NCBI RefSeq assembly: GCF_009755275.1
Contig: NZ_WQLA01000003.1
Span: 496,001-560,000 of the forward strand
Direction of reading: 5' to 3'
Length of the DNA: 64,000 nucleotides
From: Mucilaginibacter aquatilis
GTDB taxonomy: Bacteria > Bacteroidota > Bacteroidia > Sphingobacteriales > Sphingobacteriaceae
The notes below the pieces were generated by a model, which saw only the letters and a list, made by a program, of their open reading frames with translations, was not told where the DNA came from and made no database searches. Shown here in pieces: positions 34,313 to 52,770 of this stretch. The position numbers and the translations under genes were made by a program. Position 1 is the stretch's first letter, and every line of letters begins with the position of its first letter.

Positions 34313-36232
34313 TTATTGCGTTACAGGACCTTCAGATAGTATGGGCTCTTCTTCGGGCAGATTATGGTATCTTCGCAGAACGCTCATCATATCCTGCTCG
34401 TGCTGGATCATGGCTGCTACGGACCAATCCTCATGACCATATGCGAACGCCAGTTTCAGGCTCTCTATACCGGACTTATTTGTCCGGTGTATAAAATCCC
34501 AACGCTTCTGATCAGGTGATTGATTATTGTAACCGGAATTAGAATTTACGCTGATCAGTGCCAGGTTACCGAATCTGTCCTTTATTTTTTCGTCCACCCC
34601 TTCCGGTATAGGAACCGTCGACCAGGTATCGAAAGCCGGATTTCTGGGGTAGATGTGTTCTACCGAACGATTATCCCGGAACTGGAAGTTCCGGATCTTT
34701 TCACGATGGTCTTCGATCCTGACGACAGGAAGTTTGAGTGACCCGGTCGTCCATTCTTTCCACAGGATATAATCCAGATTATAGAACCAATACCGATTCG
34801 TGCCTGTTCCGTTGTTCAGCACCGAACTCAGTCTTTTTCCGCGGAGAAAGTTCATCGCGATACTCCTGTCTATTGTCCCGAGTACTTCTAACAGGCGTAT
34901 CTGGTCATCGCCCTCCTGAATAAGGTGCGCAAGCGCTTTGGTAAACCAAAGGGAAGGTGCTGTGCTGACGTTCAGCATGGCTTGCAGCTGAACGAGCAGT
35001 GCGTCCTTACCTGCGCAGGTCCGAACATATTCGTCTTTGGAAGGGTCCATCTGTCTGATGCCACGGATCTCCCAACAATAACCCTGTTCAGTATTGATAC
35101 TTTTAATGAAATGCTCATCATAAAGGATCCTGCACCTGAACAGATGCCGGATAAACCGATCCGCATCGCTAATATTGAAGTAGGTCTCGAAACCGGTCAG
35201 GAGTTTCTTATCCTCTACCGACAGACCTGAAGTGTCCGAACCCTTCAGGAACAGTTTAAGGCAGTGTAAGAGGAATTCCGGAAAATTAACGATAGAGCCG
35301 ACCTTTTCCCTTATCATATCGGGGTCCTGTTCTTCCTTTTGTCTCTGCCTGCCAGCTTTAACGCCCTCCCCGATCAATGTCTCCAGCGTAGGCAGATCCG
35401 AGCCATTGCCCCCGGCATTGAAAAAGGACATGATCCTCACATCGATGTTTAAAAGCTTTGCCCGGTTAAAGCTCAGACCCCCATCCAGTCCGTATTCTAC
35501 ATACTGGTCCAGTTGTGCCACCGCATCCCATATCTTACCGTATCCTTCCTGTAGTTCCGGATCGATATGAGATAATAACGTCGCTTTCAGGATGTGATGA
35601 CTTTCCAGCTGCAGACCGCGGTTGTTCATATCCTCAAAATATTTATTAAGGTCCACACTGTCCGGCAGAAATATTGCGACCATATTGACCTGCCTCAGGA
35701 AAAAACCGGAAAGCCGTTCGGTCTCAGAAGCGGAAAGCTCGCGTAGAAACTCTTTTATGGACCTGATTGCATCGACCATTATAAGGTTGATATCTTCATC
35801 AACGATTTCTGCAGGTTCATCGATGTTCGCGCCGATCAGAGATCTCAGGAATCGTTCATCCTCACGTCTTGCGGCGAAACCCAGCATTGGTGAACCATCA
35901 GCCAGCAGGAACAGGTCCCAGCCCTGACATCCTATCGAACGCATGACCGAGCCGATCAGCCATAAGGTTGTCAAACGTTGCTGACCGTCGATGATATCAA
36001 AACACTGAGAAATTTTATTGTGGTGTAACGTGATGTTACCGATATAATAATCACGCCCGGGATCTTTGTTCGCGGCGTCAAGGACATCTTTTAATAATCT
36101 GTTGATTTCCTTATGCCCCCAGGAATAAAGTCGCTGATAGATGGGAATATTAAAGGTACGAACCTGATGGGACGAACGGATCGCGTTAAGTTCAATTGGT
36201 GTAAAAGGTATAGGTTCAGGTATCATGGTCAT
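34313..36232 (-). CDS. DUF262/DUF1524 protein (GmrSD-like restriction enzyme)
   Basis: 639 residues. The DUF262 part (ParB/Srx-like NTPase) has FNIPIYQRLYSWG near 29-41, YYIGNITLHH and DIIDGQQRLTTLWLIG near 78-93. The C-terminal DUF1524 His-Me finger nuclease has RSVEHIYPRNP followed by DRFGNLALIS and NSGYNNQS. GmrSD enzymes of this design cut DNA with modified bases. It overlaps a second DUF262 gene by 4 bp, so both are made together. Confidence 0.88.
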   Translation of the reverse strand: MTMIPEPIPFTPIELNAIRSSHQVRTFNIPIYQRLYSWGHKEINRLLKDVLDAANKDPGRDYYIGNITLHHNKISQCFDIIDGQQRLTTLWLIGSVMRSIGCQGWDLFLLADGSPMLGFAARREDERFLRSLIGANIDEPAEIVDEDINLIMVDAIRSIKEFLRELSASETERLSGFFLRQVNMVAIFLPDSVDLNKYFEDMNNRGLQLESHHILKATLLSHIDPELQEGYGKIWDAVAQLDQYVEYGLDGGLSFNRAKLLNIDVRIMSFFNAGGNGSDLPTLETLIGEGVKAGRQRQKEEQDPDMIREKVGSIVNFPEFLLHCLKLFLKGSDTSGLSVEDKKLLTGFETYFNISDADRFIRHLFRCRILYDEHFIKSINTEQGYCWEIRGIRQMDPSKDEYVRTCAGKDALLVQLQAMLNVSTAPSLWFTKALAHLIQEGDDQIRLLEVLGTIDRSIAMNFLRGKRLSSVLNNGTGTNRYWFYNLDYILWKEWTTGSLKLPVVRIEDHREKIRNFQFRDNRSVEHIYPRNPAFDTWSTVPIPEGVDEKIKDRFGNLALISVNSNSGYNNQSPDQKRWDFIHRTNKSGIESLKLAFAYGHEDWSVAAMIQHEQDMMSVLRRYHNLPEEEPILSEGPVTQ

Positions 36233-37647
36233 AAACGGGCTAAAAATGACAGGGACCTTGGTAAAAGATGCCGGTGGCCTAAAAAGAACGCATGTTCAGG
36301 ATCTTCGAATAATGAAATCCTCATTTTTTCACGTATGCTGTTGGACTTTATATTTTGCTCCCGATAGGCACCTTCCAGAAGTACATTGCAGCGTTCAACA
36401 ATGTAGTCGGGATGTCCGGCCCTTTCGATCAGCGCGAAGGGATTATGCTCCTCCCGTATATAGCGGTATACCGAACTATACTGCACCGTCGGTTGTTTGA
36501 ATCTTAAATGGTAACAGGTGAAGAACAAGCAGGCCAGAACATAATCCGCTTCTTCATGACCAAACTTGTCCACATAGAAAATGACCGCAGCAACGAATAG
36601 CTCATGAACATACCGGGTGCCTGTATTATGGTCAAAATGCTTCAGGTTGGTTTCCAGTTCACGAAAGAAAGGGCCAAGCTTATTCCCGACGATGATCTGT
36701 TTATATAGCTGGTAATATTTCTGGGTGAACCAAAAGAAGGATTCGCCACCTTCAAGCGACTGCGTGATCTGCAATGGTAGCGAAAGCAGGGCATCATCAT
36801 TAATAAGTATACTTCCGGAACGATAGATACCGTCATGTCTGTCAAAGAACAGTTCCAGGCCTTTGCCGCTGACCGGGTCGTATCTCCACGTCCTGAATAA
36901 GGGGGCCTGCTGATATCTGTTCATGAGATATCCTGATCGGTCAGACCTGTGTATACGTTGCGAGCGGAACTCTTTTTTGATATCCAGTTCGCGGTACTCT
37001 TTACGCCCCCATTTTCGCCCCCTGCCCAGGATGCTGCCTAACAACGTTCCAATTTTAAGGGCAGGATCTTTTTCAAGGGATTGCCACTTGACCGCACAAT
37101 CCTCCGCCAGAGCCGGGTCCGCAATGTAACGTAAGTGATGTGCCTTGAGTATCTCATGGTCGTCCAGCCTTTTTCCACGCGAATTCTGACTGTCAAAAAA
37201 TGCAAAAGCGTCATCAAGATCAGGAGCGTACAGAACGATAAAGAAGATATCCGCGAAATCAAGCTCCGGACCACCACCTTTCTTTTTAATCATATCGTTT
37301 ATTAGAGCGGCGTTCTTCCTGACATTCTCCTGAGCCGATAAGTAACGGAATGGCCTTTTCATCAGAAAGTTAGAGGCCCCGGTATTCAACAATCTGTGCA
37401 GTATCGCGAAGGTGGTGAGACGCTGTTGCCCGTCAACGATATCGGTCAGGGAGCCGTTACGATGGAATATCAGACTTCCCATGACCAGCGTATCCCCCTT
37501 CTTCGCTTTGTAAAGATCAGACATAAGCGGGATCACCTGCTGGTCCGTCCAGGAATACGGACGCTGATACACCGGTATGGTAAGATCATGATCCGCCAGT
37601 AAGTCCTTCAGACTCATAACCTTCGTCTCTAACCTGGTTCCTGACAT
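36229..37647 (-). CDS. DUF262 protein without a complete DUF1524 domain
   Basis: 472 residues. The DUF262 motifs are clear: LTIPVYQRPYSWTDQQV near 23, MGSLIFHRNGSLTDIVDGQQ near 57, then RLTTFAILHRL. The C-terminal region is a different helical domain. Only a lone HRHLLPRS near the very end recalls the H-x-x-P start of DUF1524, and the rest of that nuclease is missing. It may be the NTPase/sensor of a pair whose nuclease is the downstream gene. It lies divergent from the GIY-YIG-like gene. Confidence 0.82.
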   Translation of the reverse strand: MSGTRLETKVMSLKDLLADHDLTIPVYQRPYSWTDQQVIPLMSDLYKAKKGDTLVMGSLIFHRNGSLTDIVDGQQRLTTFAILHRLLNTGASNFLMKRPFRYLSAQENVRKNAALINDMIKKKGGGPELDFADIFFIVLYAPDLDDAFAFFDSQNSRGKRLDDHEILKAHHLRYIADPALAEDCAVKWQSLEKDPALKIGTLLGSILGRGRKWGRKEYRELDIKKEFRSQRIHRSDRSGYLMNRYQQAPLFRTWRYDPVSGKGLELFFDRHDGIYRSGSILINDDALLSLPLQITQSLEGGESFFWFTQKYYQLYKQIIVGNKLGPFFRELETNLKHFDHNTGTRYVHELFVAAVIFYVDKFGHEEADYVLACLFFTCYHLRFKQPTVQYSSVYRYIREEHNPFALIERAGHPDYIVERCNVLLEGAYREQNIKSNSIREKMRISLFEDPEHAFFLGHRHLLPRSLSFLARL

Positions 37648-37721
37648 TATTAATTGTGTATTACAGATTTAGTTCCTGAATTTAAGAGTAATTTTTAACT
37701 TTAAAAAATAACCTTATTACG

Positions 37722-38147
37722 ATGCATCAATCCGCACACAAACGTGTGAACGTCAATATCACATGGGGAAAACCCTTGACGTTCGCAGCTCTGAGGGAAC
37801 TACAAGAAGAAAAATGCCGTGACACCTGTTTTTATAAGATACCAGGCAGGCATAACAACCGTTACAAGTTATTCTATACCGGGAAATGCGTCGACCAATA
37901 TGTAACGGTCCGGACATTTCAAAAGGACCATCTGACCAAACCAGCGAACTTCAGGCAGATGCGTAAGAAGAGTACGTTAATGGCCAGCCTGGGTGAAGTG
38001 AGTGCGTACCGGAAACCGCAACCGGCCGAGCCCGGTAAGTTGGATAGTCTTCTGATATCCTCCCCTACGAACGCAGATTTCTCCTGCATTAAGAACAAGC
38101 AGTGTCGCCTAGTCACAATACCGGAAGAACTGTCGTATAGCCGTTAA
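37722..38147 (+). CDS. GIY-YIG-like nuclease domain protein (tentative)
   Basis: 141 residues. FYKIPGRHNNRYKLFYTGKC followed by an arginine and QKDH fits a diverged GIY-YIG core, where YTGK stands for the YIGK element, and a late LLISSPTNADFSCIKNKQ fits the glutamate/asparagine end of that fold. Key residues are only partly kept, so the family call is tentative. It is 98 bp before the helicase gene and may be part of that system. Confidence 0.45.
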   Translation: MHQSAHKRVNVNITWGKPLTFAALRELQEEKCRDTCFYKIPGRHNNRYKLFYTGKCVDQYVTVRTFQKDHLTKPANFRQMRKKSTLMASLGEVSAYRKPQPAEPGKLDSLLISSPTNADFSCIKNKQCRLVTIPEELSYSR

Positions 38148-38245
38148 GGAATAGCCCGAAGAGGGATGTATGGGGTTCGAGGCCTATGGACTGATCGTCA
38201 ATAAGCAAATATTCACAATACTCAATAAACCTAATATCTTATCAA

Positions 38246-39703
38246 ATGCGTTTAGAAGAATGGCTTGTCGCTGACAGCAGGCTGGATGAGCAACAATATG
38301 AGATTTATATGTCCGAACCGGGCAATAGCATGGTCATTGCGGGTAATGCGGGCAGCGGAAAGACCGTGCTCGCCGTACTGCGGGCAAAAAGAGTGTCCAA
38401 TCTGGGTTCGTTCGTACTCCTGGTCTTCAACAAGGCCCTTAAAGCGATGCTGGAGTTCGGATTTATGGCTCAGCAGTTGTCCGCGGACGCAACGATCTAT
38501 GCCTGGGCTTGGGAGAACCGGGGAATGGATCTCTCCGGACTGGTCTTTTTCCCTATCACTAAGAATGGAGAGAATGTACAATATCTTTCAAGCCACATTT
38601 ATCTCCAAAAAGGTGACCGGATCGAGGTCTACAAAAAAAGTGACCATGTAAGGAAGTCACATTATGCCGCACTGCATGCCGCTTATCTTCGTGATTTCAA
38701 AACGCTTACCCCGGAAGAGATCCGGAGCAGGGAGGCCGAGATCACCAGGTTCGTCTCCGTCGACTTTGCAGATTGGATCGGTAATGCCTATTGGCAGACC
38801 TATGGACGACGAACATGTTTTTACGAATTGGAAAAGATCCTGTCCCCGCAGGAACTGAGATTGACGGACAGCACCAAATTCGAATCGTTGTCAAGTGCCA
38901 TCCTGTTCGTGCCGTTCAAGTTCAAAAAAGATTTTATGATTCTGGATGAAGCGCAGGATTTTCAGGCCGAGCAGATAGAATCATTAAGGTCGGATTTTAC
39001 CAAAAGCATTGTGTTCTTCGGCGACACAAGTCAGAAGCTTTCCACATCGGGGACATCCATAAACGCGATTGCCAAGACCATGGCATGCGAATACGTCGAA
39101 TTACAAAAGAACTATCGTGTAACTAAGGAGATCGCACGTCTGGCCGAATATATGTTACCTGACGATGAACGGACATTGGTCCGCAGATGTAACAAGGACT
39201 GGGGCAACGCGTTACCGGTAGTAAAAAAATGCAAGTCCCTGGATGAGCAGATCGACTTCATATTAGGCATCATCAAAGCAGAAGATCTGACAGATGTCGC
39301 TATATTGGTGCCGACCAACAAGATGGTCGAGATCGTGGTCAAAAAAATGAATGAAAAAGGAATGGATTCACAATATCGCTATAACCGTCCGTTAGGTGGT
39401 TTCACTGAGGCCTTGAACGACTTTATGTCCGGAGAACTCGGAGGCGGTTATTATAACCAGATTGACAACCTTAATTTTCAGAGCACGCTTCCTTGTGTAC
39501 TTACTTACCACAGTTCCAAAGGGACACAGTTCGAGACGGTGTTCATACCGTTTGCTAACGACAGTATGCATTTCAATGGGATCAAAAAGAATGCTTTCTA
39601 TGTCGCAATGACCCGTGCCAGCAGAGAATTATATCTTACTTATGAGGATAAGCTGACATCAGCTTTTGCACCAGTACCTGTGTCCTGCTATAGAAGTGTC
39701 TGA
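38246..39703 (+). CDS. UvrD-like superfamily 1 helicase
   Basis: 485 residues. Motif I is GNAGSGKTVLAVLRAKR (near 33), motif II FMILDEAQDFQ (near 231), motif III GDTSQKL, motif IV LQKNYR, motif V TYHSSKGTQFETVFIPF and motif VI YVAMTRASRELYL. The size and motif set resemble small defence helicases such as GajB, yet the next gene is not a GajA-type OLD nuclease. It should bind and move along DNA using ATP. It is followed 2 bp later by a large coiled-coil protein, clearly in one operon. Confidence 0.85.
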   Translation: MRLEEWLVADSRLDEQQYEIYMSEPGNSMVIAGNAGSGKTVLAVLRAKRVSNLGSFVLLVFNKALKAMLEFGFMAQQLSADATIYAWAWENRGMDLSGLVFFPITKNGENVQYLSSHIYLQKGDRIEVYKKSDHVRKSHYAALHAAYLRDFKTLTPEEIRSREAEITRFVSVDFADWIGNAYWQTYGRRTCFYELEKILSPQELRLTDSTKFESLSSAILFVPFKFKKDFMILDEAQDFQAEQIESLRSDFTKSIVFFGDTSQKLSTSGTSINAIAKTMACEYVELQKNYRVTKEIARLAEYMLPDDERTLVRRCNKDWGNALPVVKKCKSLDEQIDFILGIIKAEDLTDVAILVPTNKMVEIVVKKMNEKGMDSQYRYNRPLGGFTEALNDFMSGELGGGYYNQIDNLNFQSTLPCVLTYHSSKGTQFETVFIPFANDSMHFNGIKKNAFYVAMTRASRELYLTYEDKLTSAFAPVPVSCYRSV

Positions 39704-39705
39704 AT

Positions 39706-41571
39706 ATGAACATCAATAATTATCATTATCTTCCGTTATCATCCTGGAACATCAACAGTCTGTTTACAACCGAGAGCGTATCCCCACATTATTTCTACGG
39801 TTCAAGGCGATTTGGTACCATGCGTAACACGCTGACAACGGATCAGGAGTTACCGCTACAGTTCGATAATTGTCTGGTTCTCTATCCTCAACCATTCCGG
39901 TTCAGACCATTAAAAGGCCGGCCGGTGTTCCTGGCCATTCTTAAAACGAGCCTGCCGGACAGCAAATATGTTGTCAGCAAGGATGGCCTGACCTATTGCT
40001 ACCGTACCATCTATCTGAGGAGGGATCAGTGCTTTATCTGCATCGCAACGGAAGAAGATAAAAAGTTGATACTGGCAGATGCCTCACCGAGTATCGAGGT
40101 GAAGACTATCCCTAAATACCTGTTGTTCAAAGGAAGTTCCAGTTTCAGGATCATTGCAGACGACCGTAAGTTCGATCTGATGTTCCATAGTCCTCAGATT
40201 CATTACCCTGACAGGTTACTGCTGAATAAGCGTTCAGAATCCCAACCGTATTTTGACCGGGCCTTCAATCAGATCAAAGGAACATTATATGGACTGATCT
40301 GCGGCACCATCGGTGGCAGGAACGATTCAGAAATCGAATTGGAAAAAGGGTTTCAGGAGTTGCAGAACGTGATGACCGCAACCAAAGGCAAAGCAGAGCT
40401 ATCCGAAGGTTTCACGCCGGATCTGTTCATTGAGCTCCGCGCAAAAATCAAGGGCACCAGAGATCGTTTCAAGGCCGCGAACAAAAAGGAAAAGACAAGC
40501 AAATTCGACCTGTTGGATCATTACCTTAATGAACTGGTGACTTACACGGAAAGACGATCACAGGAGTTGGCGCGGCAACGTACCGCTATGATCCCAGCCG
40601 TTGAAGAGGATACTGAGTACCGTTCGCCTTTATTGAGTGATGCCATGAGCGGAAAAGAGCTGTTAGAGCGGCATCTGTCCGAACTGAATGCTGATATTCA
40701 GCGGATCACAGATGAATTAAAGGACCTGGGACGGTCGGCCAAGTACAAAGACCGGCGGTCCTTGTTGAAAGAACAAAGGTCTGATCTTAACGACCGCGGT
40801 AAGGAACTTAAAAAGCATATCTCCGCTTTAAAGTCGCGCATCAACTCCCTGCAATACAGGGGTCTCAACAGAACGCTGAACGGCAGGACAAATTTCGATG
40901 GCAACATTGAGGACATCTATTACAAGATGGGCACTTTAGTGACCGAGATGAATTTCAATAATAAGGCAAGATTTTTGGGTAAGAAAAGAAAGGATACTGA
41001 ACTTGACCTTGAACCATATCTGTTCGATATCAAGCACCTGACCAGATGCTACTACAATGACAAAGTTGAGACCGATGATCAGATACTCTTAGCGCATGAC
41101 CAGGCACATTTTCCTGATAGTGAATTGTTCAGGATCATCATTGATACCTTATTGCTGAATGCCAAAGGGCAGCAGGATATTAACGAGGGCCAGATCAACT
41201 CGATCTTAAGTGACGTGATCCGCAAAATGAACGGTAAAAATGAGTTGACTGACTCATTAAAAGCGTTACACCAGCTGCAGGACTACCGTGCCACAAAGGC
41301 GTTCGAATACGTTCTTCCCGATAACACACCCCTGATAAGGAACTTTATCGCGTTCTTATTCAAACCCAATAGTATGGAAGAACTTCAACGGTACCTCTTC
41401 AACAAGAATATTGAACAACATCACATTGCATATACGTTCTGGGGTGCATTCAACGGGTTTGCGGCCATGCCGAAAACGTTTACCGATCCCATTTTCAATA
41501 AAGGAAATGAGAAATTAATGGATGCGATCGACCAACATTTGTTCTTCCATTACTTAGCCATTGCTCAATAA
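39706..41571 (+). CDS. Large unrecognised protein with central coiled coil, helicase partner
   Basis: 621 residues that match no family I know. The N terminus is beta-rich with a distinctive start (LPLSSWNINSLFTTESVSPH, then FYGSRRFG). The middle is charged and helical with a likely coiled coil (near 325-385, LNADIQRITDELKDLG, KELKKHISALKSRIN). The end has a helical domain with FWGAFNGFAAMPKTF. No Walker, nuclease or zinc motif is evident. It begins 2 bp after the UvrD-like helicase, so the two surely work together. A structural or sensor role is possible. Confidence 0.75.
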   Translation: MNINNYHYLPLSSWNINSLFTTESVSPHYFYGSRRFGTMRNTLTTDQELPLQFDNCLVLYPQPFRFRPLKGRPVFLAILKTSLPDSKYVVSKDGLTYCYRTIYLRRDQCFICIATEEDKKLILADASPSIEVKTIPKYLLFKGSSSFRIIADDRKFDLMFHSPQIHYPDRLLLNKRSESQPYFDRAFNQIKGTLYGLICGTIGGRNDSEIELEKGFQELQNVMTATKGKAELSEGFTPDLFIELRAKIKGTRDRFKAANKKEKTSKFDLLDHYLNELVTYTERRSQELARQRTAMIPAVEEDTEYRSPLLSDAMSGKELLERHLSELNADIQRITDELKDLGRSAKYKDRRSLLKEQRSDLNDRGKELKKHISALKSRINSLQYRGLNRTLNGRTNFDGNIEDIYYKMGTLVTEMNFNNKARFLGKKRKDTELDLEPYLFDIKHLTRCYYNDKVETDDQILLAHDQAHFPDSELFRIIIDTLLLNAKGQQDINEGQINSILSDVIRKMNGKNELTDSLKALHQLQDYRATKAFEYVLPDNTPLIRNFIAFLFKPNSMEELQRYLFNKNIEQHHIAYTFWGAFNGFAAMPKTFTDPIFNKGNEKLMDAIDQHLFFHYLAIAQ

Positions 41572-41650
41572 TTAAATAGTTCATGTTAAACGTTTGTCAG
41601 CGGAAATTCCGAAACAGATTACGAACTTGTAAGATCTGATTACTCCGCTA

Positions 41651-41753
41651 TCCCTTTACCCGTGCAGCCCTCCCGGATAGCTGTCTATAAAAGAAAAACA
41701 ATAAAAAAGAAAGTCAGAGGAGCGGTCGCAAAGGCGGAGCGGGAGACTATAAG
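41651..41753 (-). repeat. Dispersed noncoding repeat, copy 3 (partial)
   Basis: Matches the first ~100 bp of copies 1 and 2 (CCCTTTACC, CCTCCCGGATAGCTGT, AAAAAAGAAAGTCAGA, AGCGGTCGCAAAGGCGGAGC) and then diverges after GGGAGACTATAAG. Unlike the other copies, no leftward gene starts beside it; the helicase operon ends 80 bp to the left. It looks like a truncated relic. Confidence 0.7.
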
Positions 41754-42042
41754 ACAGCCTCCGCCCGCGTGCCGAATTGCGTTTTCCGTGCAAGTCCGGC
41801 CGCCTGAAGAATGACCTTTCGTATTTGTTGTTTAGTTGCTGTTACCTTGTCGTGAATCATGTATATATTCAAGCCACCAATATTCAAATCAAATAAATTC
41901 TGTAAATAAAAAGCGCCATTGTCATCTAGTTAACCTCGAACCTACCAGTTGCATGTTACTGATCATCATCAAAGTCGCCCTTATCTACCAGGTCGCTCAT
42001 TTAAGACACTGTTGATCATTGAGTAATTCAAAACTTATATAA
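41754..42042. other. Non-coding stretch beyond repeat copy 3
   Basis: No gene is seen. The start (GACAGCCTCCGCCCGCGTGC) may be decayed repeat sequence. The rest is AT-rich and lies between two convergent units. Confidence 0.4.
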
Positions 42043-43053
42043 TCAAAGAAGCGGATTTTCCCTCGAAAAAATGCGACCCTTCAAAGCGAAATCCCGCTGC
42101 ATCTTACCGCAGGTACGATTGAGGATTTCAGACTGTTTAAAAGGTATTTCCTCTTCCTGACAGATCTTTTGCTCAACCTCATGCAAGTCGGCCAAACCCC
42201 ACAATTCAATCATTTCTTCTTTGACCGAGTCTGGATAACGTTGCGATGCCCGATGGATCAGTTTGGCATATCTCCTTTCGTTAGGTAGATTGATCCGATT
42301 TACTATGCCCAGATCGAAGTTAAATACCGGCGAGCGCTCATCAGTGTGATCAAGGGTGATCGTATAAGGTGTCAAATCGTTTGCGTAGTCGTGATCAAAA
42401 GTATTACCATCGTCGTAATGATCCAGGTAAGGATGAAAATGTGTTACCGGAGTGAAGGTCCGCTGTTGCTTAAAATTTTCATTGCAGGGTGAACAAGCAG
42501 GTATCAGGTTATAAAATGATAAACATAAATATGGATAAGTTGCCTTATCATAAAAGTGATCATAGCTTACAATCGCCAACTGACGCTCCTCATCCCAATG
42601 AACCCAGACCGGCAACATGTTACAATAAGGGCAAACATCGATGCCAAGCATGGTCAACAATCTCTTGCTTTTGACACTTCGTCGCCAGTTCTCATAATCA
42701 AAAACTTCATGCAGTATCTCATGCCCCAGGCTCCCCGGATCAGCACTTCCATGTGCAAGTCCATGTCGGGCATACAGGGCGTTCATGCGGGCGATCAATG
42801 CCGGTGTTGTCTCCGGCCGCACCAGTATAATCTCTTTCAGCAGAGCGCAATCCGCATCAAGCAGTTCGTTATAAAAAGCTGTACGTGCAGCATTGCCATT
42901 ATTTTGATAAAAGTCGCGCTTGCGTACGACGCGCATGACGAGTGAATAGTCATGATAACGTTCCTGAGCCTTAATATACGGACTTATCAGATTCCAATGA
43001 TCTTCGGCAACCTCCGTTATGGGCTTTTCTGCACCCCTTTCGATCTTAACCAT
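42043..43053 (-). CDS. HNH endonuclease, Septu PtuB-like
   Basis: 336 residues. The HNH core has VCPYCNM (C141, C144), SYDHFYDKATYP (D165, H166), NLIPACSPCNENFKQ (C187, C190 and the asparagine). These are the zinc knuckles and metal-binding residues of an HNH nuclease. The gene overlaps the end of an ABC-type ATPase gene by 8 bp. That order, ATPase then HNH nuclease, is the layout of Septu (ptuA-ptuB). It would be the DNA-cutting effector. Confidence 0.82.
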   Translation of the reverse strand: MVKIERGAEKPITEVAEDHWNLISPYIKAQERYHDYSLVMRVVRKRDFYQNNGNAARTAFYNELLDADCALLKEIILVRPETTPALIARMNALYARHGLAHGSADPGSLGHEILHEVFDYENWRRSVKSKRLLTMLGIDVCPYCNMLPVWVHWDEERQLAIVSYDHFYDKATYPYLCLSFYNLIPACSPCNENFKQQRTFTPVTHFHPYLDHYDDGNTFDHDYANDLTPYTITLDHTDERSPVFNFDLGIVNRINLPNERRYAKLIHRASQRYPDSVKEEMIELWGLADLHEVEQKICQEEEIPFKQSEILNRTCGKMQRDFALKGRIFSRENPLL

Positions 43054-44932
43054 TGAGTCTTTTACTTAATCTTTCTTCCAGAATACGTTTCAATACCGGT
43101 TCACCGACCCGGTCTATCAGCTGCTGCACCTTTCGGATGTCGAAGCGGTCACTGCTGAGTATAGGTGCTATGATTTCGTCTTGTATCTTTTGCCTCGCAA
43201 AACTGCTAACGGTTGATTCGCCCAAGAAAAAATTTTCCGTAAACAACGTATGGATATTTCCGCCCAAGGTCCGTTTTTCAGGTCTGCTGACACGAACGTT
43301 CGAGAACCCGAGATCATCTTCGCTTTTTTCCAGCAGAATAATATTCTCGCGGGGCAGGTCGCTAATGATAAAGGGTGAGTGTGTGGTAAGAATAAGATGA
43401 ATTCCGTTCGGACGTATAAGCTCAGAATTAAGGAACTCCAACAAGAAATGCACATAATCACGCTGCCATTCTGGATGAAAATACAAATCGCCTTCATCGA
43501 TGAGCATGAGTACGTTATCGCTTCGGATATCTTTGAGAATAGCAAACAGCCTGGAAAAATAAGCGATTAAAGATTCTTCACCTGCACTCAGCGAAGGCCA
43601 GCGCATGTTCATAAAGGGTAAATCCAGGGCAGTACTGTAATGACGCTCAAAGAATTCGCTAAACAAATCTGAATTTGTCCGTAAAGTCAGTGAATGTTTA
43701 TCTTTTTCAAACTCTGGCCAGTGACGCCGGAAGTACACCTCCAACGCTTCAATATCCGTAAGCTTAGCCAGGATCGGCAACTGCTTCTTTGATCTTTTTT
43801 CATTTTTTTCTGTTGCACGACGCTGCAGGTCCTCAAATAGCCCACGTAAATTATCAATCAGTCTCCCATAGCGCGAATTGTCGTGGTCCAGAAATTCCTG
43901 ACCTTCCCGGAATATGTCGATCAGTTGGATAAAATGTTCCTGTTGCTGAATCAGCAGATCAATTAAAACATTATCCTGCAGGATACTCCGTAAAAGGAAC
44001 AAGGTCAGGTTCTCGTAAAAACGACCTTGTAGCGGATCAGTTCCGTGTTCATAACGAAATTCGATCCGTTTACCGAATTCACTTAGTGTTGCGGATAACC
44101 GATCCGATAGATCCCGAACAAATCCTTCTGGTAAAGACATGTTATCAGTAACGCGTTCGATATTCTCTATCAGATACGATCTCAGCCTGTCAACATCGTT
44201 CCTGGACAATGTGTGAATATTTACAGCTATCGCGTCTATACGTTTAAAAGGAATGTCCGGGCGACGTTGCAATTCATTGAATGCCCGGAGGAACTCCACC
44301 TGCCGTTTCAGCTCTGTATAACGAAACCTTTTGACGCCGCCTAGGGTCCGGATCTTTTTGCTCCTGACCGCCTGATTGATCTTACCGATTTGTTCTTTAA
44401 GAAAACCGGTTGATACATTATAATAATTGACGCTTTCCTTTTCAAAGAAATCGGTCTCTAAGCTATTGGAGTAATATATGGTCGTCAGATTCTTAATGCG
44501 ATCGAGCACCTTTGGATAATCCCGGTAATAAACCTCTTCGAGTGGCAAGCCGGTCTCATTATCAATTTCAATATCGGCACGTGCATACTGATTAATATAT
44601 ACTTTGATCACACCTCCGTCTTTAAAAAACACAATGTCCTGTTCCCGTTCATCCAGCTCTTTTTTATCTTTAATGAACAGATCCCTGAGATAACGCAGCG
44701 TCGTCGATTTACCCACGCCGTTTTTACCGACAATGCCAGTCACATAAATAATATTCTGACCGAAAAAATCCTTGATTAAATCTTCGCGCTGAGCGATCGT
44801 AATGAATGTTTTAGATGCATTATGATTAATGCGGATATCAAAGCGTTGATCAAAGCAAAGTATTTGGTCGCTCAAAACGCCGTATTTCGAGCCTAGTTTG
44901 ATACCTATAAGGTTAGTCGTATGTTCATCCAT
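43046..44932 (-). CDS. ABC/OLD-like AAA ATPase, Septu PtuA-like
   Basis: 628 residues from the ATG at 44932 (MDEHTTNLIG). A longer frame from 45028 adds an unconserved leader. Walker A is GIVGKNGVGKSTTLRYL, followed by a long coiled middle section, the ABC signature WPSLSAGEESLIAY, Walker B NVLMLIDEGDLYFH and the H-loop LILTTHSPFIISD. It is an SMC/OLD-type ATPase that probably senses infection and controls the HNH partner. The 246-bp gap to the divergent gene at 45179 holds both promoters. Confidence 0.85.
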   Translation of the reverse strand: MDEHTTNLIGIKLGSKYGVLSDQILCFDQRFDIRINHNASKTFITIAQREDLIKDFFGQNIIYVTGIVGKNGVGKSTTLRYLRDLFIKDKKELDEREQDIVFFKDGGVIKVYINQYARADIEIDNETGLPLEEVYYRDYPKVLDRIKNLTTIYYSNSLETDFFEKESVNYYNVSTGFLKEQIGKINQAVRSKKIRTLGGVKRFRYTELKRQVEFLRAFNELQRRPDIPFKRIDAIAVNIHTLSRNDVDRLRSYLIENIERVTDNMSLPEGFVRDLSDRLSATLSEFGKRIEFRYEHGTDPLQGRFYENLTLFLLRSILQDNVLIDLLIQQQEHFIQLIDIFREGQEFLDHDNSRYGRLIDNLRGLFEDLQRRATEKNEKRSKKQLPILAKLTDIEALEVYFRRHWPEFEKDKHSLTLRTNSDLFSEFFERHYSTALDLPFMNMRWPSLSAGEESLIAYFSRLFAILKDIRSDNVLMLIDEGDLYFHPEWQRDYVHFLLEFLNSELIRPNGIHLILTTHSPFIISDLPRENIILLEKSEDDLGFSNVRVSRPEKRTLGGNIHTLFTENFFLGESTVSSFARQKIQDEIIAPILSSDRFDIRKVQQLIDRVGEPVLKRILEERLSKRLNG

Positions 44933-45178
44933 GATATGGTAAGGTGAAAGAAAAAATAAATATATAAAATATTCATGTGGGGTAGTGGCAATTACGATTT
45001 TGAAGCGACAATGACCCAATAAGCCCACCGTCCTGTATACTTAAATCAGCACATTTTTAATAGTTTGATAAAATAACTTTTTCATAGTACTCCGAATCGC
45101 GTTTCAATTTTTCAGCAACAAAAAATATTTATTAGGTTTATAGATGAAACCCTTTCATACCGCCTACTTGTCACAATT

Positions 45179-47125
45179 ATGAGTTACTATTCTTATACCG
45201 ATACTGCGCTCAGAGTCATACACATTAATACTCGTATGACTGTTGCAAATAAGGAAGTCAAGAAGATCCGCGAGCTCTTTCAGAATTTTGTGGGGTCTAA
45301 TAATTTTAAAGGACAGATGATCTCACAGAATTTAATGGCGAATCTTTTGAACCCGGAGCTGCAAAAGGTCCTGATTCATGAATCACATCATTACTGGCAA
45401 AGTCTCTTTTATCCGTTTCTATTCTATATCAATTTTTTGGAGTACCATGGCGTAGTTCACCTGCGCAGAGAGGTCAGGCTATCAGAAGAAGCACAGGTGC
45501 CATTCGATCACTTTGGACTCAACACGCCAACGGTAAACAACTTTCATTTTTGCTGCGTGAACTTCCGCTATTACTGGAATGACAGTAATATGCTGGAGAT
45601 CGATGTCGACTACCAGCAATGGACAGACTGGTATGATGCAGATATATTTTGTTTAAATGACCTGATAGAGGACAGCACAACCATTTTCGAGTTCAAGGCA
45701 TCCAACGAAGATGCCGGTCCTGAACGATATTTTGAGTGGATACAAAATCCCGCTAACAGAGCCTATAAAAAGCTTTACAAGTTCCTGTGTAAGCGTTTTG
45801 ACCCGAAGTACGCTTACCACTTCATCCCGATATTAACGCAATTAGCTTTCCATACAACTGAACCCATTTCCATCTTTCGTGACCTCGTTAACATGACCAT
45901 TGCCTATAATCTTGACAAGAATTTTGACGGGATCGATTATTTTCTGCTCAAGGATATGATCAAGATACGTTATAAGACCATTGATCTCGATCCGGCAAAC
46001 ACGAACTTTATACAGGATATACCCGTCGGCTTTATCGACGATACACTTTATGATAAGATCATTACCTATGCGAACATGAACACCGGTTCCGCGCATTATC
46101 CCCTGAGTGTACATGCCGGAAAATATCTCAACTGGAAAAAAGAGAACGAACAACGGGAGATGGCGTTGATCGAGACCGACCACCAAAGATCGAAAAAGCT
46201 GTTGGAAACTTTTTTCCCGTTTGCTATCCACGTTAATTTCCTTGACCTACATGCCCGTGATACCGCATTAGTGTGTTCTTCTCCGGATTATCAAGAATAC
46301 AAAATCAAGGATCATACGGTCGACTATGGTACGATAGTCAAGGAGATGGTCAAAATGAAAGAGATCACTTTGGCTTTGTTCAGCGATGCGATGGCTGATA
46401 CCCCGTTTTTGTGCCATCACAAACAGTGCGCTTACTACAACATTGGAATTTGCCGAAAATGGAATTCTGTTCCGGCCGATTATAAGGAATGTAAGTTCCC
46501 GTCCTGGTTCGCATGGAATTATCTGTACGAAATATCCGTTGAGGATAATTGCTTGAAAAAGATCAACGCCGAGCAGGAAAAGGCCTATGAGAAGGAATTC
46601 TTCAGGATTAATGACAAATTCGCGGAAGACCGGTTCCGTTATGTCGGACTTGATCAATACCATATTGTACTTTTGATTAATAAGGAAGTCCTGAATGAAA
46701 ATGACTATTCCTATGTAGGAGAATTCCTAAACAAGATCAGCAACACCCGTGATCCGGAACAACTATTCAGTTTCTTAGTGATCGAATTCCCGGATCATAA
46801 GGATGATCCACGACCGGTTTTCCAGATACCGGAAATCAAAAAATACGTCCAGGTAATCATGGATAGGATCCCCGCGCTGTTTTTTTACCTGGCACTAAAG
46901 GGCAGGTTCCGGACACATCACTATATGTTCCCTTTTTTCGTAAAGCATAAAGCTACTGTCTATCCGGATACAAGTTTTATGGTTCAGTACGATCATCATT
47001 CCTTAGAAGCATTCATTAAAAGACAAATGTCCGATATACTTAACCACTGTTTAAGTCAAAAACTTGACTCTGATTTTTATCTTGAAGAATTTATCAAACA
47101 TTCCCTGCAAAACAGTCACCAATGA
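45179..47125 (+). CDS. Unrecognised large protein with an HExxH zincin-like motif
   Basis: 648 residues with no family I can name. VLIHESHHYWQSLFYPF holds H67, E68 and H71 of the HExxH zinc-protease signature in a predicted helix. A cysteine/histidine group (FLCHHKQCAYYNIGICRKW, then ECKFPSW) near 415-447 may bind another zinc. The rest mixes aromatic helices. It overlaps a small membrane-type gene by 4 bp and lies divergent from a Septu-like pair inside a defence island, so a protease effector is plausible. Activity is inference from the motif alone. Confidence 0.7.
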   Translation: MSYYSYTDTALRVIHINTRMTVANKEVKKIRELFQNFVGSNNFKGQMISQNLMANLLNPELQKVLIHESHHYWQSLFYPFLFYINFLEYHGVVHLRREVRLSEEAQVPFDHFGLNTPTVNNFHFCCVNFRYYWNDSNMLEIDVDYQQWTDWYDADIFCLNDLIEDSTTIFEFKASNEDAGPERYFEWIQNPANRAYKKLYKFLCKRFDPKYAYHFIPILTQLAFHTTEPISIFRDLVNMTIAYNLDKNFDGIDYFLLKDMIKIRYKTIDLDPANTNFIQDIPVGFIDDTLYDKIITYANMNTGSAHYPLSVHAGKYLNWKKENEQREMALIETDHQRSKKLLETFFPFAIHVNFLDLHARDTALVCSSPDYQEYKIKDHTVDYGTIVKEMVKMKEITLALFSDAMADTPFLCHHKQCAYYNIGICRKWNSVPADYKECKFPSWFAWNYLYEISVEDNCLKKINAEQEKAYEKEFFRINDKFAEDRFRYVGLDQYHIVLLINKEVLNENDYSYVGEFLNKISNTRDPEQLFSFLVIEFPDHKDDPRPVFQIPEIKKYVQVIMDRIPALFFYLALKGRFRTHHYMFPFFVKHKATVYPDTSFMVQYDHHSLEAFIKRQMSDILNHCLSQKLDSDFYLEEFIKHSLQNSHQ

Positions 47126-47496
47126 AAATAAAATTTGAATCAGAGAATCGCGAGCTTCTGCACGAATTTCATCAGTACCTCTATGAGAGAAATAAAAGCC
47201 TGATCGTTGATGAACACTATGAAATGACGCCTGGTGTTCACAAAGAGCCGATGGTAGTCGCCCTTATCATTGCATTAGGCGGAAAACATATTCTGGAATT
47301 CATACAAAAATCGATGAAGGATTTTCTCGACTACAAGATCGAGCGCTCAAAACAGGAAACGCTTCGGCAGCAAGAACAGCTTCGGCATAAAGAAGTATTG
47401 CTCAAGCTGAGCTTATATGAGAACGGCAAATGGCAGGACCTAACTTCCGAAGCTTTTGAGAAGCTTGAAACGCGTCCTGAAAAAGAAAATCGATGA
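47122..47496 (+). CDS. Small protein with one membrane-type helix and coiled coil
   Basis: 124 residues. A soluble N-terminal part (ENRELLHEFHQYLYERNKSL) is followed by a hydrophobic helix (MVVALIIALGGKHILEFI), a charged helix (KIERSKQETLRQQEQLRH) and a short basic end (LYENGKWQDLTSEAFEKL). This outline recalls the small constant components that accompany protease effectors in ternary conflict systems, though no sequence family can be claimed. It starts within the end of the HExxH gene (4-bp overlap), so it is its obligate partner. Confidence 0.65.
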   Translation: MKIKFESENRELLHEFHQYLYERNKSLIVDEHYEMTPGVHKEPMVVALIIALGGKHILEFIQKSMKDFLDYKIERSKQETLRQQEQLRHKEVLLKLSLYENGKWQDLTSEAFEKLETRPEKENR

Positions 47497-47638
47497 ACCA
47501 AGCATTTGAAGCACACACTGGTTAAAAAAGAATGAATAACATTTCACTATATGTCGTCTGCTTAAAATAATGCTAACGATTCATTGAAAATAGTAGCTTT
47601 TGATTGCCTGATAACCAGTACTTAACCGTACAATCACA

Positions 47639-49063
47639 ATGAAAATAAGCAAATTGTTTCAACTGGGTAAAACCCAGGCAGAGTTGGATTTTGTTGATAT
47701 TGATCCCGACGGAGATACGCCGCTTTTTCTGGACCCACATTTTTTAAGCAAACGAGTAGATAGCTGGTCAGTTGAGGCGACCCTCACTTTAAAAAGTTTC
47801 TTTCAAAGAATCATTGACCTCGTTCGTACGGATCAAATTGATGTTGCGAAAGACATGTTTGACTATCTGAGAGAACCAAACGCTACCTGTCTTGGTCTAT
47901 CTCAGGGCAGACCGAGAGGTAACGGTGTTGGAGACAGAGATACAGCAAAAATCTTTCAAAGCCTCCTGAAAAGCAGAGCCATACAAACTGGCTTAGTCCA
48001 AGACTTGCAAGACAGCATCCTATTCGTTGACAATTTCGGAAGAGATAAGCTGTCAGACATGGCGACTAACATCATTACTAAACACCTCGTTGATTACACG
48101 ATCAGACAATGCATTTTCCACAATATACCTTTGCATAGTGGATTATCAACAGGTTACTATTGGTCAAGACAAAGCAATTCCTGGGAAAACTCTTCATCGC
48201 AACGTTTAATCGCTGGCGGTAAACCCATACTTCTTGTGCCCAAGGGAGCTGTGTCGTTTAGCCAATCGTATACACCAGATAGATACTACCAGCATTTTGT
48301 ATTGACCTTCTTACAGAATGAACACTTGCGACTCAATTCGGCGTTAGTGCAAAGGAGGGCTAAAGGGGCCCGATTTGTTACAAAGAAATCCCTTGAAACG
48401 GATAACCCCAGAAACAAAGATTTTCTAAGAAGCTTTACCTTCAAACACCCCAAGGTTTTGCAAGATTTCAAAGATCAAACAAATCCCCCTCCGCTTCAGA
48501 ATAGCCAAATCTCGGATGTTAGTTTTCAGACTATTGCAAAATCGTTAGGATCTCAATTAGTAAAAATCCCCTTCGGTACCAAAGATGCCAGTGCTTTCCA
48601 TAACATAGTGCTGGGTATTTTAGAATTGTTGTTCTATCCTGACCTGATGAATCCTGTCAAAGAACAAGATATCGACAAAGGCAGAAAGCGAATCGATATA
48701 CTTTTTGACAACAGCAGTACCAGTGGTTTTTTCTTTAACTTATCTAACCATTTCATGTTACCTTGTGGTCATATTTTTATAGAGTGTAAGAACTATTCAA
48801 CCGATATTGCCAACCCTGAGCTTGACCAGCTTGCGGGGCGATTTTCAATCAATCGGGGAAAGGTTGGAATTGTGGTTTGTAGAAGTTTTGATAACCGACA
48901 ATTATTCATCGAGCGATGTCGAGATACGTACACCGCACAACGAGGCTTAATTATTCCCTTAATCGATCAGGATCTCGTAAACTTGTTAGATAACATCGAT
49001 GAAAATAACCGCACATTCTTAAATGACTACCTAACGAAAATTTTGAAAGAAATCACTTTATAA
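47639..49063 (+). CDS. PD-(D/E)XK nuclease-like protein
   Basis: 474 residues. The C-terminal third has a restriction-nuclease-like core: GRKRIDILFDN (D) and GHIFIECKNYSTDIANPELD (E-x-K), followed by KVGIVVCRSFDNRQLF. The N-terminal two thirds are a separate domain (DIDPDGDTPLFLDPHFL, then GSLKSRA-type helices) with no known name. It lies alone, 142 bp after the HExxH pair and 219 bp before an HNH gene. A single-gene defence nuclease is likely; the target is unknown. Confidence 0.7.
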   Translation: MKISKLFQLGKTQAELDFVDIDPDGDTPLFLDPHFLSKRVDSWSVEATLTLKSFFQRIIDLVRTDQIDVAKDMFDYLREPNATCLGLSQGRPRGNGVGDRDTAKIFQSLLKSRAIQTGLVQDLQDSILFVDNFGRDKLSDMATNIITKHLVDYTIRQCIFHNIPLHSGLSTGYYWSRQSNSWENSSSQRLIAGGKPILLVPKGAVSFSQSYTPDRYYQHFVLTFLQNEHLRLNSALVQRRAKGARFVTKKSLETDNPRNKDFLRSFTFKHPKVLQDFKDQTNPPPLQNSQISDVSFQTIAKSLGSQLVKIPFGTKDASAFHNIVLGILELLFYPDLMNPVKEQDIDKGRKRIDILFDNSSTSGFFFNLSNHFMLPCGHIFIECKNYSTDIANPELDQLAGRFSINRGKVGIVVCRSFDNRQLFIERCRDTYTAQRGLIIPLIDQDLVNLLDNIDENNRTFLNDYLTKILKEITL

Positions 49064-51429: not shown

Positions 51430-52770
51430 TTAGGTAATAATCACCGATTGCCTGTCCTTTGCAACGCAAATACCATCTTTAACGATATAGCATTCGACAA
51501 AATGGTTGCCCTTGAAACTCGTAGGCTCCTGATGGGTTACCCCCCCTTCATTGATCTGGCCACGGATACAATTCGAGGCGATAGCATGTTCTCCACGGTT
51601 TAAGGTTTTCCAGTATATGGCGTATGGTTGCGGTATGTTCACGTTGGTTACGGTAAAGGTGATCCACCTGCCCCGTCCGACCTTGTTTCCTTGTGTGGCC
51701 AAGTCATAATGCCGGTGGCCTGTTTTTTTGTTTACCCGCCCGGTCAGGCGTACTTTATAAATGGGATTGATGCGAAGCGGAAAGCCCAGCTCGGTAATCT
51801 GTTGTTCGGTATTGTTGTAGGACACCAGACTTCTGCTGGCGGCATTTTGCTGCTCTTCTGTCTTTGTTTTCGGTTTCTTGAAGCACTCCCCAAATATTTC
51901 CTGCCATTTGACCAGGCTTTTTTCTTTATCGGTTTCGTCATAGGCTTCCGTGATCTTATCACTGTAATAAATCATCTTGGTTCTGAATACCGCCCAGCCA
52001 TCCTGGTTCCAGCGATCCCCAAAGTTTTCGCCCGTTTCTCCGGGATCTGCAATAGTTGGCATATATTCGTGATCGTGAACATAGGCCTTCAGTTTTTTCA
52101 TGACCGTGTACAAAGTTGTGGGAACATCGCTGTAGCAATTTTCGTCTTCCAATAAGGCGGCATCATTGACCTGCTCACCTACAAGCGTATTGAGGATGAT
52201 GGATTTGATAGCGAAAGTCTGTTTGTAGTCACGGATATACTTGATCAGACGGATAACTTTCACAAAATGATGTTTGGTGATCCGGTTGCGCTCATCAAGC
52301 CATTCCGTATATTTTTCGGGGTCTGTCAGCTCAAAATTATTCTCATGGCGATTGGTCACGAACTTTTGCCCATGTCGCTCTAAAAAGGGAACAACATCAA
52401 TGTGGAAGTCATTGGCATATTTGATTGTCACACACCTAGTTTTCCTACTGACTTTTTCCCGGTAGGTGCTATTGTCCCGGAAAAATTGGTAAAGTTCGTG
52501 CACGTAATCTTTTGCTTCCCATTCCGGGTATTCCTTGAGATAAAGCAATATATCTGCGTCAAACTCATGGGTGGCTTTGACCGGTTTGATGATCGTTTTA
52601 TGCGCGTATGAACCTTGTGGAATCACATCGATAAAATTATCCTTAAATTTATCGCTTTCGCTCAACAGGTCGGTAATGATTTCCGTCCGGTCGTCCAGAG
52701 TCGTGATCCTAGCTGAATTTAAGTTGACTTCGTTATCCAAGAAGCTTTTAAAGTAGTTGATTAATTTCAT
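51430..52770 (-). CDS. CBASS nucleotide cyclase (CD-NTase) with AGS-C sensor domain
   Basis: 446 residues. The nucleotidyltransferase core has QGSYAHKT (G53-S54), HEFDADILLYL (D71, D73) and DFHIDVVPFL (D125), the residues that bind two magnesium ions. A helical SMODS-type part follows. The C-terminal ~130 residues (YKVRLTGRVNKKTGHR, GNHFVECYIVKDG) match the AGS-C sensor domain. On infection it makes a cyclic oligonucleotide signal. It overlaps the SAVED effector gene by 4 bp. Confidence 0.9.
   Translation of the reverse strand: MKLINYFKSFLDNEVNLNSARITTLDDRTEIITDLLSESDKFKDNFIDVIPQGSYAHKTIIKPVKATHEFDADILLYLKEYPEWEAKDYVHELYQFFRDNSTYREKVSRKTRCVTIKYANDFHIDVVPFLERHGQKFVTNRHENNFELTDPEKYTEWLDERNRITKHHFVKVIRLIKYIRDYKQTFAIKSIILNTLVGEQVNDAALLEDENCYSDVPTTLYTVMKKLKAYVHDHEYMPTIADPGETGENFGDRWNQDGWAVFRTKMIYYSDKITEAYDETDKEKSLVKWQEIFGECFKKPKTKTEEQQNAASRSLVSYNNTEQQITELGFPLRINPIYKVRLTGRVNKKTGHRHYDLATQGNKVGRGRWITFTVTNVNIPQPYAIYWKTLNRGEHAIASNCIRGQINEGGVTHQEPTSFKGNHFVECYIVKDGICVAKDRQSVIIT

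Follow-up and report, generated by a model that had tools for sequence, protein, structure and literature searches.

What protein accompanies the GajB-like helicase of Mucilaginibacter aquatilis, and what might the two accomplish together? The question arises from a stretch of 64,000 nucleotides (NCBI RefSeq assembly GCF_009755275.1, contig NZ_WQLA01000003.1, positions 496,001 to 560,000), which I will call the window. An initial annotation, made from the letters alone, had noted within it a UvrD-like helicase and, 2 bp away, a 621-residue coiled-coil partner that it did not recognize. The list of open reading frames (ORFs) bears out the arrangement: the helicase gene (38246-39703, 485 aa) comes first, followed after a gap of 2 bp by the partner gene (39706-41571, 621 aa), both on the forward strand. 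The partner, by its predicted folds, appears to be a fusion of an ADP-ribosyltransferase (ART)-like and an ADP-ribosylhydrolase (ARH)-like domain, and I would grant an even chance to the proposition that the two genes form a mobile conflict module, probably directed against phage, that works by helicase-controlled ADP-ribosylation of nucleic acid.

Whether the two genes belong together can be judged from their occurrence elsewhere, a check that the initial annotation had proposed. Homologues of the partner are present in 7 of 395 genomes of the class (the window's own genome included) and, at an E-value of 1e-5, in 5 of 395 genomes of the phylum; one of the latter (G761, locus L068; 23 bits) lacks the helicase, and I discarded it as a match to the coiled coil. 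A pattern scan of a species-genome collection contributed 41 loci and viral contigs contributed two. Without G761 and four loci that repeat genomes already counted (L014=L034, L015=L024, L016=L025, L017=L041) there remain 47 distinct loci, and at every one of the 47 a helicase ORF immediately precedes the partner in the same orientation, with gaps ranging from -83 to +15 bp. Helicase and partner are a real module. The same cannot be said of a 141-aa ORF at 37722, offered earlier as a possible third, GIY-YIG-like part. The ORF exists, but its similarity to GIY-YIG (E 0.023) lies below the Pfam cut-off, it has no homologue in 197 other genomes of the class and no BLAST match among the ORFs of the other loci, and I have set it aside.

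The distances among helicases and those among partners correlate with r 0.907 over 44 loci, a figure to which shared species history can add; none of 999 permutations reaches it, the highest attaining 0.37. The trees omit L056, L062 and L063, in which the partner gene is cut short or broken. Searched at an E-value of 1e-45, the helicase subfamily appears in 6 of 198 genomes of the class, every one of which has the partner, although these six helicases were in the profile itself, and the result shows only that no member lacking the partner came to light at that threshold. The seventh genome with a partner (G285) is absent from the helicase list, presumably because it was not drawn in the sample. 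The hosts are mostly Bacteroidota, and inside the tree there are also a Desulfovibrio isolate (placed among Prevotella-type members) and metagenome-assembled genomes (MAGs) of Geobacter and Chloroherpeton. These host positions suggest horizontal transfer of the pair, with the reservation that MAG contigs can be misassigned.

The helicase is the more readily classified of the two proteins. It matches Pfam UvrD_C (2.2e-12) and UvrD_C_2 (1.2e-10), placing it with the UvrD-like enzymes of superfamily 1 (SF1), whether as helicase or as ATPase, and its best match in PADLOC is GajB (3.4e-18), in keeping with the likeness that had been noted. All seven helicases scanned match the profiles of GajB and of C3a187 (NERD+UvrD), and that of the window also matches RTasHel (PADLOC). 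The NCBIfam model of HelD (NF041464) is matched at 3.6e-16, with 58.2 bits as against an equivalog cut-off of 419, and one relative's helicase matches it at 3.6e-22, also far below the cut-off. The P-loop, DExQDF, GDxxQ, TYHxxKG and YVAxTR motifs are all retained. Within the Walker A motif (GNAGSGKT, residues 33-40, 38342-38365, forward strand) residues 33 and 35-39 do not vary among the 29 helicases aligned, nor do D234, E235, Q237 and D238 of Walker B, or motif II (DEAQDF, residues 234-239, 38945-38962, forward strand). The window helicase and that of G285 (541 aa) are longer than those at other loci (331-382 aa), and, in an alignment of seven, these two alone carry an insertion between motifs Ia and II, of about 135 residues in the window (38522-38929 on the forward strand, limits drawn by eye), at a site that I take to be the place of the UvrD 1B domain. 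The two helicases join in the tree, where long-branch attraction is possible.

The partner, on the other hand, deserves its description as unrecognized. In Pfam, PADLOC 2023, NCBIfam 2026 and PHROGs the window protein finds no meaningful family or described system, and its relatives (41 in Pfam, seven in PADLOC, seven in PHROGs, five in NCBIfam) match no described system either. Neither of the outcomes that the initial annotation had named as refuting, a partner belonging to a described system or two genes unlinked elsewhere, was observed in these scans and loci. Its top library matches, PADLOC LmuB (1e-4), NCBIfam ASRP (0.002, far under the cut-off), Pfam TPR_MLP1_2 (0.023) and PHROGs (0.031), all fall on the coiled coil. 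LmuB (1e-4) and ZorA (0.056), each matched by one of seven members in PADLOC at E 0.1 and on the coiled-coil stretch, were considered as identities for the partner and rejected as coiled-coil noise. I considered a reverse transcriptase as well, since the neighbours of the pair resemble accessories of defence-associated reverse transcriptases (DRT); there is none among the Pfam families or structure matches listed, which is not proof of absence. No nuclease profile is matched by the window partner at E-values up to 1, nor does one appear among the best 25 of the 57 Pfam families listed for 41 partners. A C4 zinc ribbon of the Top1 type does occur in 4 of the 41 at E-values up to 1 (best 2.6e-12; the full Cys pattern in two), which fits a nucleic-acid target.

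Where family libraries are silent, predicted structures speak. AlphaFold (AF2) models were made of the window partner (predicted local distance difference test, pLDDT, 70.1; predicted template modelling score, pTM, 0.72) and of its relative from Parabacteroides acidifaciens (L041; pLDDT 85.2, pTM 0.71). The two proteins are about 20% identical, and the same two folds emerge from both models. Residues 1-157 of the window model (39706-40176, forward strand), the DarT-like ART-fold domain, superimpose on DarT 7omw with a Z score of 9.3 (126 residues aligned, 3.2 A), and residues 1-148 of the relative's model on DarT1 8baq with a Z of 9.4 (129 aligned, 3.6 A); structures of DarT1 and DarT2 score 8.7-9.4 across the two models and 8.7-9.3 in that of the window. 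These Z scores, and those that follow, are a second look at Foldseek's own match lists. Residues 185-621 (40258-41568, forward strand), the ARH/DraG-like domain, resemble ARH3 (6g1q_B) with a Z of 13.7 (218 aligned, 4.0 A), as do residues 163-486 of the relative (Z 12.8, 192 aligned, 3.2 A). Apart from the chloroplast and mitoribosome chains named below, the first remaining unrelated structures score 7.0 and 7.9. In Foldseek's searches of PDB, DarT heads the list for one model, filling its first four rows, and takes rows 3-4 for the other. The fold calls are credible because each of the two domains, in members far apart from one another, points to ADP-ribose biology. The central coiled coil of the initial annotation is present in the window protein, as a coiled-coil-like insertion at residues ~265-391 (40498-40878, forward strand) that is apparent in the AF2 secondary structure at low pLDDT, but it lies within the ARH-like domain, and its long helices are not seen in the L041 model. 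The initial annotation's picture of a coiled-coil partner with no known catalytic motif finds no support in a protein built, on these predictions, of an ART-like and an ARH-like fold.

Conservation adds to this account. The distinctive N terminus that had caught attention in the window protein proves real: its motif is the most conserved part of the wide family of 41 members. N15, N17, S24, S26, P27, R34, G37, K133 and Y138 are invariant in all 41, and the sequence NFNNIL, following the first strand, resembles by eye the NLxxIL of DarT. The essential Arg and Glu of DarT1 are R52 and E152 (PMC11543638), and R34 and E131 of the partner are candidates for their counterparts, matched by eye. In the ARH-like half, glycines G192, G580 and G584 are found in 41 of 41 partners, the latter two aligning with glycines of ARH. 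The metal-binding motifs of ARH proteins are DD and DxD. A scan of the ARH-like half for the corresponding patterns ([TSD]D[DE][TS] and D[TSG]D[TS]) finds them in 0 of 41 partners, and the same scan has only five matches anywhere, all of them within the ART part, between residues 77 and 91. Because the metal motifs are found in none of the members, the ARH-like half is probably a pseudo-hydrolase (pseudo-ARH). A comparison by HHalign of the partner with ARH scores 29.3, above all of 100 column shuffles (highest 24.2) and in register with the terminal ARH motif, so the ARH-like domain may claim some support from sequence and the DarT-like domain none.

A number of observations weigh against the assignment of these folds and functions. 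Both AF2 models were fed the same 41 sequences and are not fully independent. Helical folds can reach a Z of about 13 by chance, as the tool itself warns, and the single scores are moderate; chains of the chloroplast FtsHi complex and of the mitoribosome also score on the ARH-like part, at 10.5-12.5 in the window model and 8.4-10.7 in the relative's. Foldseek finds no match in PDB at an E-value of 0.001 or better (the best for DarT being 0.35 and 0.52), and in the relative's model two unrelated chains outrank DarT. Against viral models it likewise has nothing at that level, the top row being an uncharacterised protein of Bacillus phage SP-15 (E 0.064). At the level of sequence, HHalign gives a probability of only 5.6% for ARH, and its comparison of the N terminus with seven DarT sequences is null (0.18%, with 40 of 100 shuffles scoring as high). 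PF14487 is unmatched by the window protein at E-values up to 1 and by anything in its genome, and a profile of the N terminus run against PDB sequences finds no DarT, returning one chance match (E 6.3). E131, the candidate for the catalytic Glu, gives way to G, N, T and T in L037, L055, L061 and L065, respectively, which leaves 37 of the 41 partners with it, and the residue at the position of DarT1 H17 is, by eye, not His. The link of the N-terminal domain to DarT is one of predicted structure, the sequence comparison being null.

If the folds are nonetheless accepted, how might the pair work? DarT enzymes modify bases of single-stranded DNA (PMC11543638), which would make a strand-producing helicase a natural feeder, and a role of DarT in phage defence is cited in PMC11833690. 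Starting from the conserved gene pair, the intact set of helicase motifs and the two folds of the predicted models, I infer the use of NAD+, a target in nucleic acid, gating by the helicase, a role for the pseudo-ARH domain and defence itself. The helicase or ATPase would serve as both sensor and motor on nucleic acid, loading on or unwinding foreign or damaged molecules and offering single strands to the ART domain. The latter would transfer ADP-ribose from NAD+ onto bases, thereby blocking replication or transcription of the phage. The pseudo-ARH domain may restrain the ART domain or grip the modified product, in lieu of the separate antitoxin of DarTG. That the purpose is defence is suggested by the defence-type neighbours of the pair in the window and by the BREX genes associated with 6 of the 47 loci, both described below. 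I hold more tentatively, and at somewhat less than an even chance, a fuller version of the proposal: a helicase-gated immune system in which an SF1 motor feeds foreign single-stranded nucleic acid to a transferase of the DarT fold, itself equipped with a dead ADP-ribosylhydrolase as built-in brake or product reader, forming a new class beside DarTG, with some versions adding a methyltransferase-like gene and DUF1848 and others embedded in BREX.

Other accounts of the same protein must be considered. The ART-fold domain might be akin to Tpt1/KptA and act on RNA ends or a 2'-phosphate, the pair, with its HelD-like motor, then being a module for RNA repair or transcription rescue rather than a weapon of defence. 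Tpt1/KptA structures are the next-best matches to the N terminus of the window model (Z 7.5, 6.6, 6.5, 6.2), the helicases of the window and of one relative do match HelD (both far under its cut-off, as noted above), and E131 is not universal. DarT scores higher in the window model, however, and Tpt1 is absent among the best 50 matches listed for the relative's model. Moreover, partners (16-23% identical to the window protein) diverge faster than helicases (31-38%), and patchy, defence-type contexts fit conflict better than they fit housekeeping repair. I judge the RNA-repair account unlikely.

To about the same degree improbable is the idea that the partner is a scaffold without enzymatic activity, both of its ADP-ribose folds degenerate, which binds nucleic acid or, as a sensor, NAD+ or ADP-ribose and so steers the helicase. 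It would explain why the ARH metal motifs are found in none of the 41 partners and why the helicase gene is still present at the four loci where E131 has been lost, but the nine invariant residues of the ART part, at an overall identity of about 20%, make the pattern of a working pocket, which a binding pocket might also produce. As for a nuclease hidden in the partner of a Gabija-like or NERD-helicase-like system, the matches of all seven scanned helicases to GajB and C3a187 invite the thought, and it is very improbable indeed in view of the lack of nuclease profiles in the partners, within the limits given above, and of two structure searches that both return ADP-ribosyl folds. Helicase-controlled ADP-ribosylation of nucleic acid, as a means of defence, is the most likely reading.

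Many of the relatives have additional genes in common. A DUF1848 gene accompanies the pair at 33 of the 47 loci, and so, at 33 of 47, does a methyltransferase-like gene, both judged by clustering, and both shares lean on a clade favoured by the pattern scan: of the seven partner genomes of the class only G167 has DUF1848, by maps. At least two (L045, L056) of the 14 loci without DUF1848 end at a contig edge. The two DUF1848 proteins scanned match PF08902 (5.1e-91 and 2.1e-89), and one such neighbour matches RTasDUF1848 of PADLOC at 4.7e-39. By eye, the C-terminal end of the protein carries a CxxxCxxC cluster resembling the one in radical-SAM enzymes, and there is a weak NCBIfam radical-SAM match at the same place (E 0.0085). 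DUF1848 is otherwise rare, occurring in 3 of 149 genomes of the class, one of which is G167; in the other two there is no helicase or partner within flanks of 1,500 bases. Two changes on the partner tree suffice to account for its linkage, not counting L045 and L047, which are near contig ends. The methyltransferase-like gene has a GxGxGG-type motif (by eye) and matches PADLOC RT_UG35 (8.1e-9, L050) or mad2 (3.5e-6, L043; 6.9e-7, L066); a short form of it, in L028, has no Pfam match. The four-gene version, made up of methyltransferase-like gene, helicase, ART-ARH partner and DUF1848, may be seen in L028:5029-10274 and at other loci. In L062:7001-10050 the locus looks decayed, the partner being split into ORFs of 444 and 242 aa and DUF1848 into ORFs of 153 and 94 aa.

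A plasmid collection has no match for the three partners tried, and a phage collection has nothing for the window partner at E 0.1 and one record for the L041 partner. A complete four-gene version is found in MT835661.1 (L099:9698-15488), a phage-labelled faecal record that is marked unverified and is unannotated, where the module is flanked by two genes that by eye resemble tyrosine recombinases. The DUF1848 protein of this record is 87% identical to that of L033, while the partner encoded there shares no more than about 27% with its best matches; the divergence of the two genes is thus very unequal.

BREX genes stand in or beside six of the 47 loci (L026, L027, L034, L043, L053, L063). In three of them (L026:579-13687, L027:2373-13514 and L034:1339-15569) the bare pair lies inside an apparent BREX operon, preceded by a gene of 1155-1200 aa (a putative pglX, by place only) and upstream of genes for PglZ and BrxL, which follow directly in two of the three and after a few small genes in L034. 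In the remaining three (L043, L053, L063) a BrxL gene immediately precedes the group of methyltransferase-like gene, DUF1848, helicase and partner. The identification of PglZ comes from Pfam in L026 and from position in L027, L034 and L053; that of BrxL comes from Pfam in L026 and elsewhere from clustering. Two further loci (L024:4228-5859 and L025:4207-5811) carry three genes immediately before the pair: one that is divergent and by eye HTH-like, one of the capP/ImmA kind (PADLOC capP, 9.8e-22, in L024) and one that by eye is PIN-like.

The version in the window is again the bare pair, within a defence island that includes two GmrSD-type genes, a PDC-M62-like ATPase with HNH, a PDC-M36-like gene, SMODS with SAVED-HNH, and AIPR. 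The two GmrSD/DUF262-type genes adjoin one another (34313-37647), DUF7834 in the second replacing the GmrSD C-terminal domain of the first. The AIPR abortive-infection protein (17428-19758) has 776 aa (PF10592, 5.4e-92), and a CBASS-type pair (51430-53963) consists of a SMODS nucleotidyltransferase with AGS_C and a SAVED-HNH protein. Beside the defence genes there is also a 648-aa protein (45179-47125) with a weak, sub-cut-off match to the CRR6 NdhI maturation factor (NF038024, 3.4e-5; Pfam Crr6, 7.5e-4).

How does the module compare with systems already described? With Gabija it shares a two-gene organization and a GajB-like SF1 helicase with intact motifs. The window partner matches no OLD/TOPRIM (GajA) profile of Pfam or PADLOC at E-values up to 1, in agreement with the initial annotation's denial that this is Gabija, and its seven relatives in PADLOC at E 0.1 gave only LmuB and ZorA; with no partner of the GajA type, Gabija was rejected. 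The order of genes is also different, since GajA comes first in Gabija and here the helicase does. From HelD the helicase is set apart by its distance from the equivalog cut-off (58.2 as against 419 bits). Several neighbours and the helicase itself match profiles of DRT-associated genes and of MADS (RTasHel, RTasDUF1848 and mad2 of PADLOC), but here an ART-ARH fusion stands at the place of the effector; no systematic search was made for nearby reverse transcriptases.

The likeness to DarTG (DarT1-NADAR, DarT2-DarG) consists in the DarT fold of the partner's N terminus, as seen in two predicted models with Z scores of 8.7-9.4. The partner differs in lacking sequence similarity to PF14487, and here the effector has an ARH-like domain joined to it and a helicase beside it. 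The host genome as a whole has no Macro domain and no match to a canonical DarT or canonical ARH (PF03747) domain, and neither Macro nor NADAR is matched by the nine further proteins scanned in the pair's own neighbourhood in the window (34313 to 49063). With ARH/DraG proteins (PF03747) the C-terminal two thirds of the partner appear to share an all-helical fold (predicted models, best Z 13.7 and 12.8), along with the aligned glycines G580 and G584; unlike them, the partner has no detectable DD and DxD motifs and is fused to an ART-like domain. The module is most likely neither Gabija nor canonical DarTG. No pairing of a helicase with an ART-ARH protein was found described among titles and abstract openings of the literature searched, and no paper in it contains the word DUF1848, most subscription papers lying outside it.

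Hachiman (HamAB) also combines, in two genes, a sensor helicase with an effector. There HamA is a nuclease, whereas the effector here has predicted ADP-ribosyl folds, and no Hachiman model is matched by the partner in PADLOC scans of the window protein and seven relatives. By kind, then, this is a helicase-plus-effector module, and it would deserve a class of its own if activity and defence were shown. The matter is directly testable, given a conserved pair and clear point mutants. If the proposal is true, it suggests a possible job for pseudo-ARH domains and a functional setting for DUF1848, and it joins in one compact pair, the partner of which has no family in the libraries scanned, two strategies known apart, that of the helicase-sensor systems Gabija and Hachiman and that of the nucleic-acid ADP-ribosylation of DarTG.

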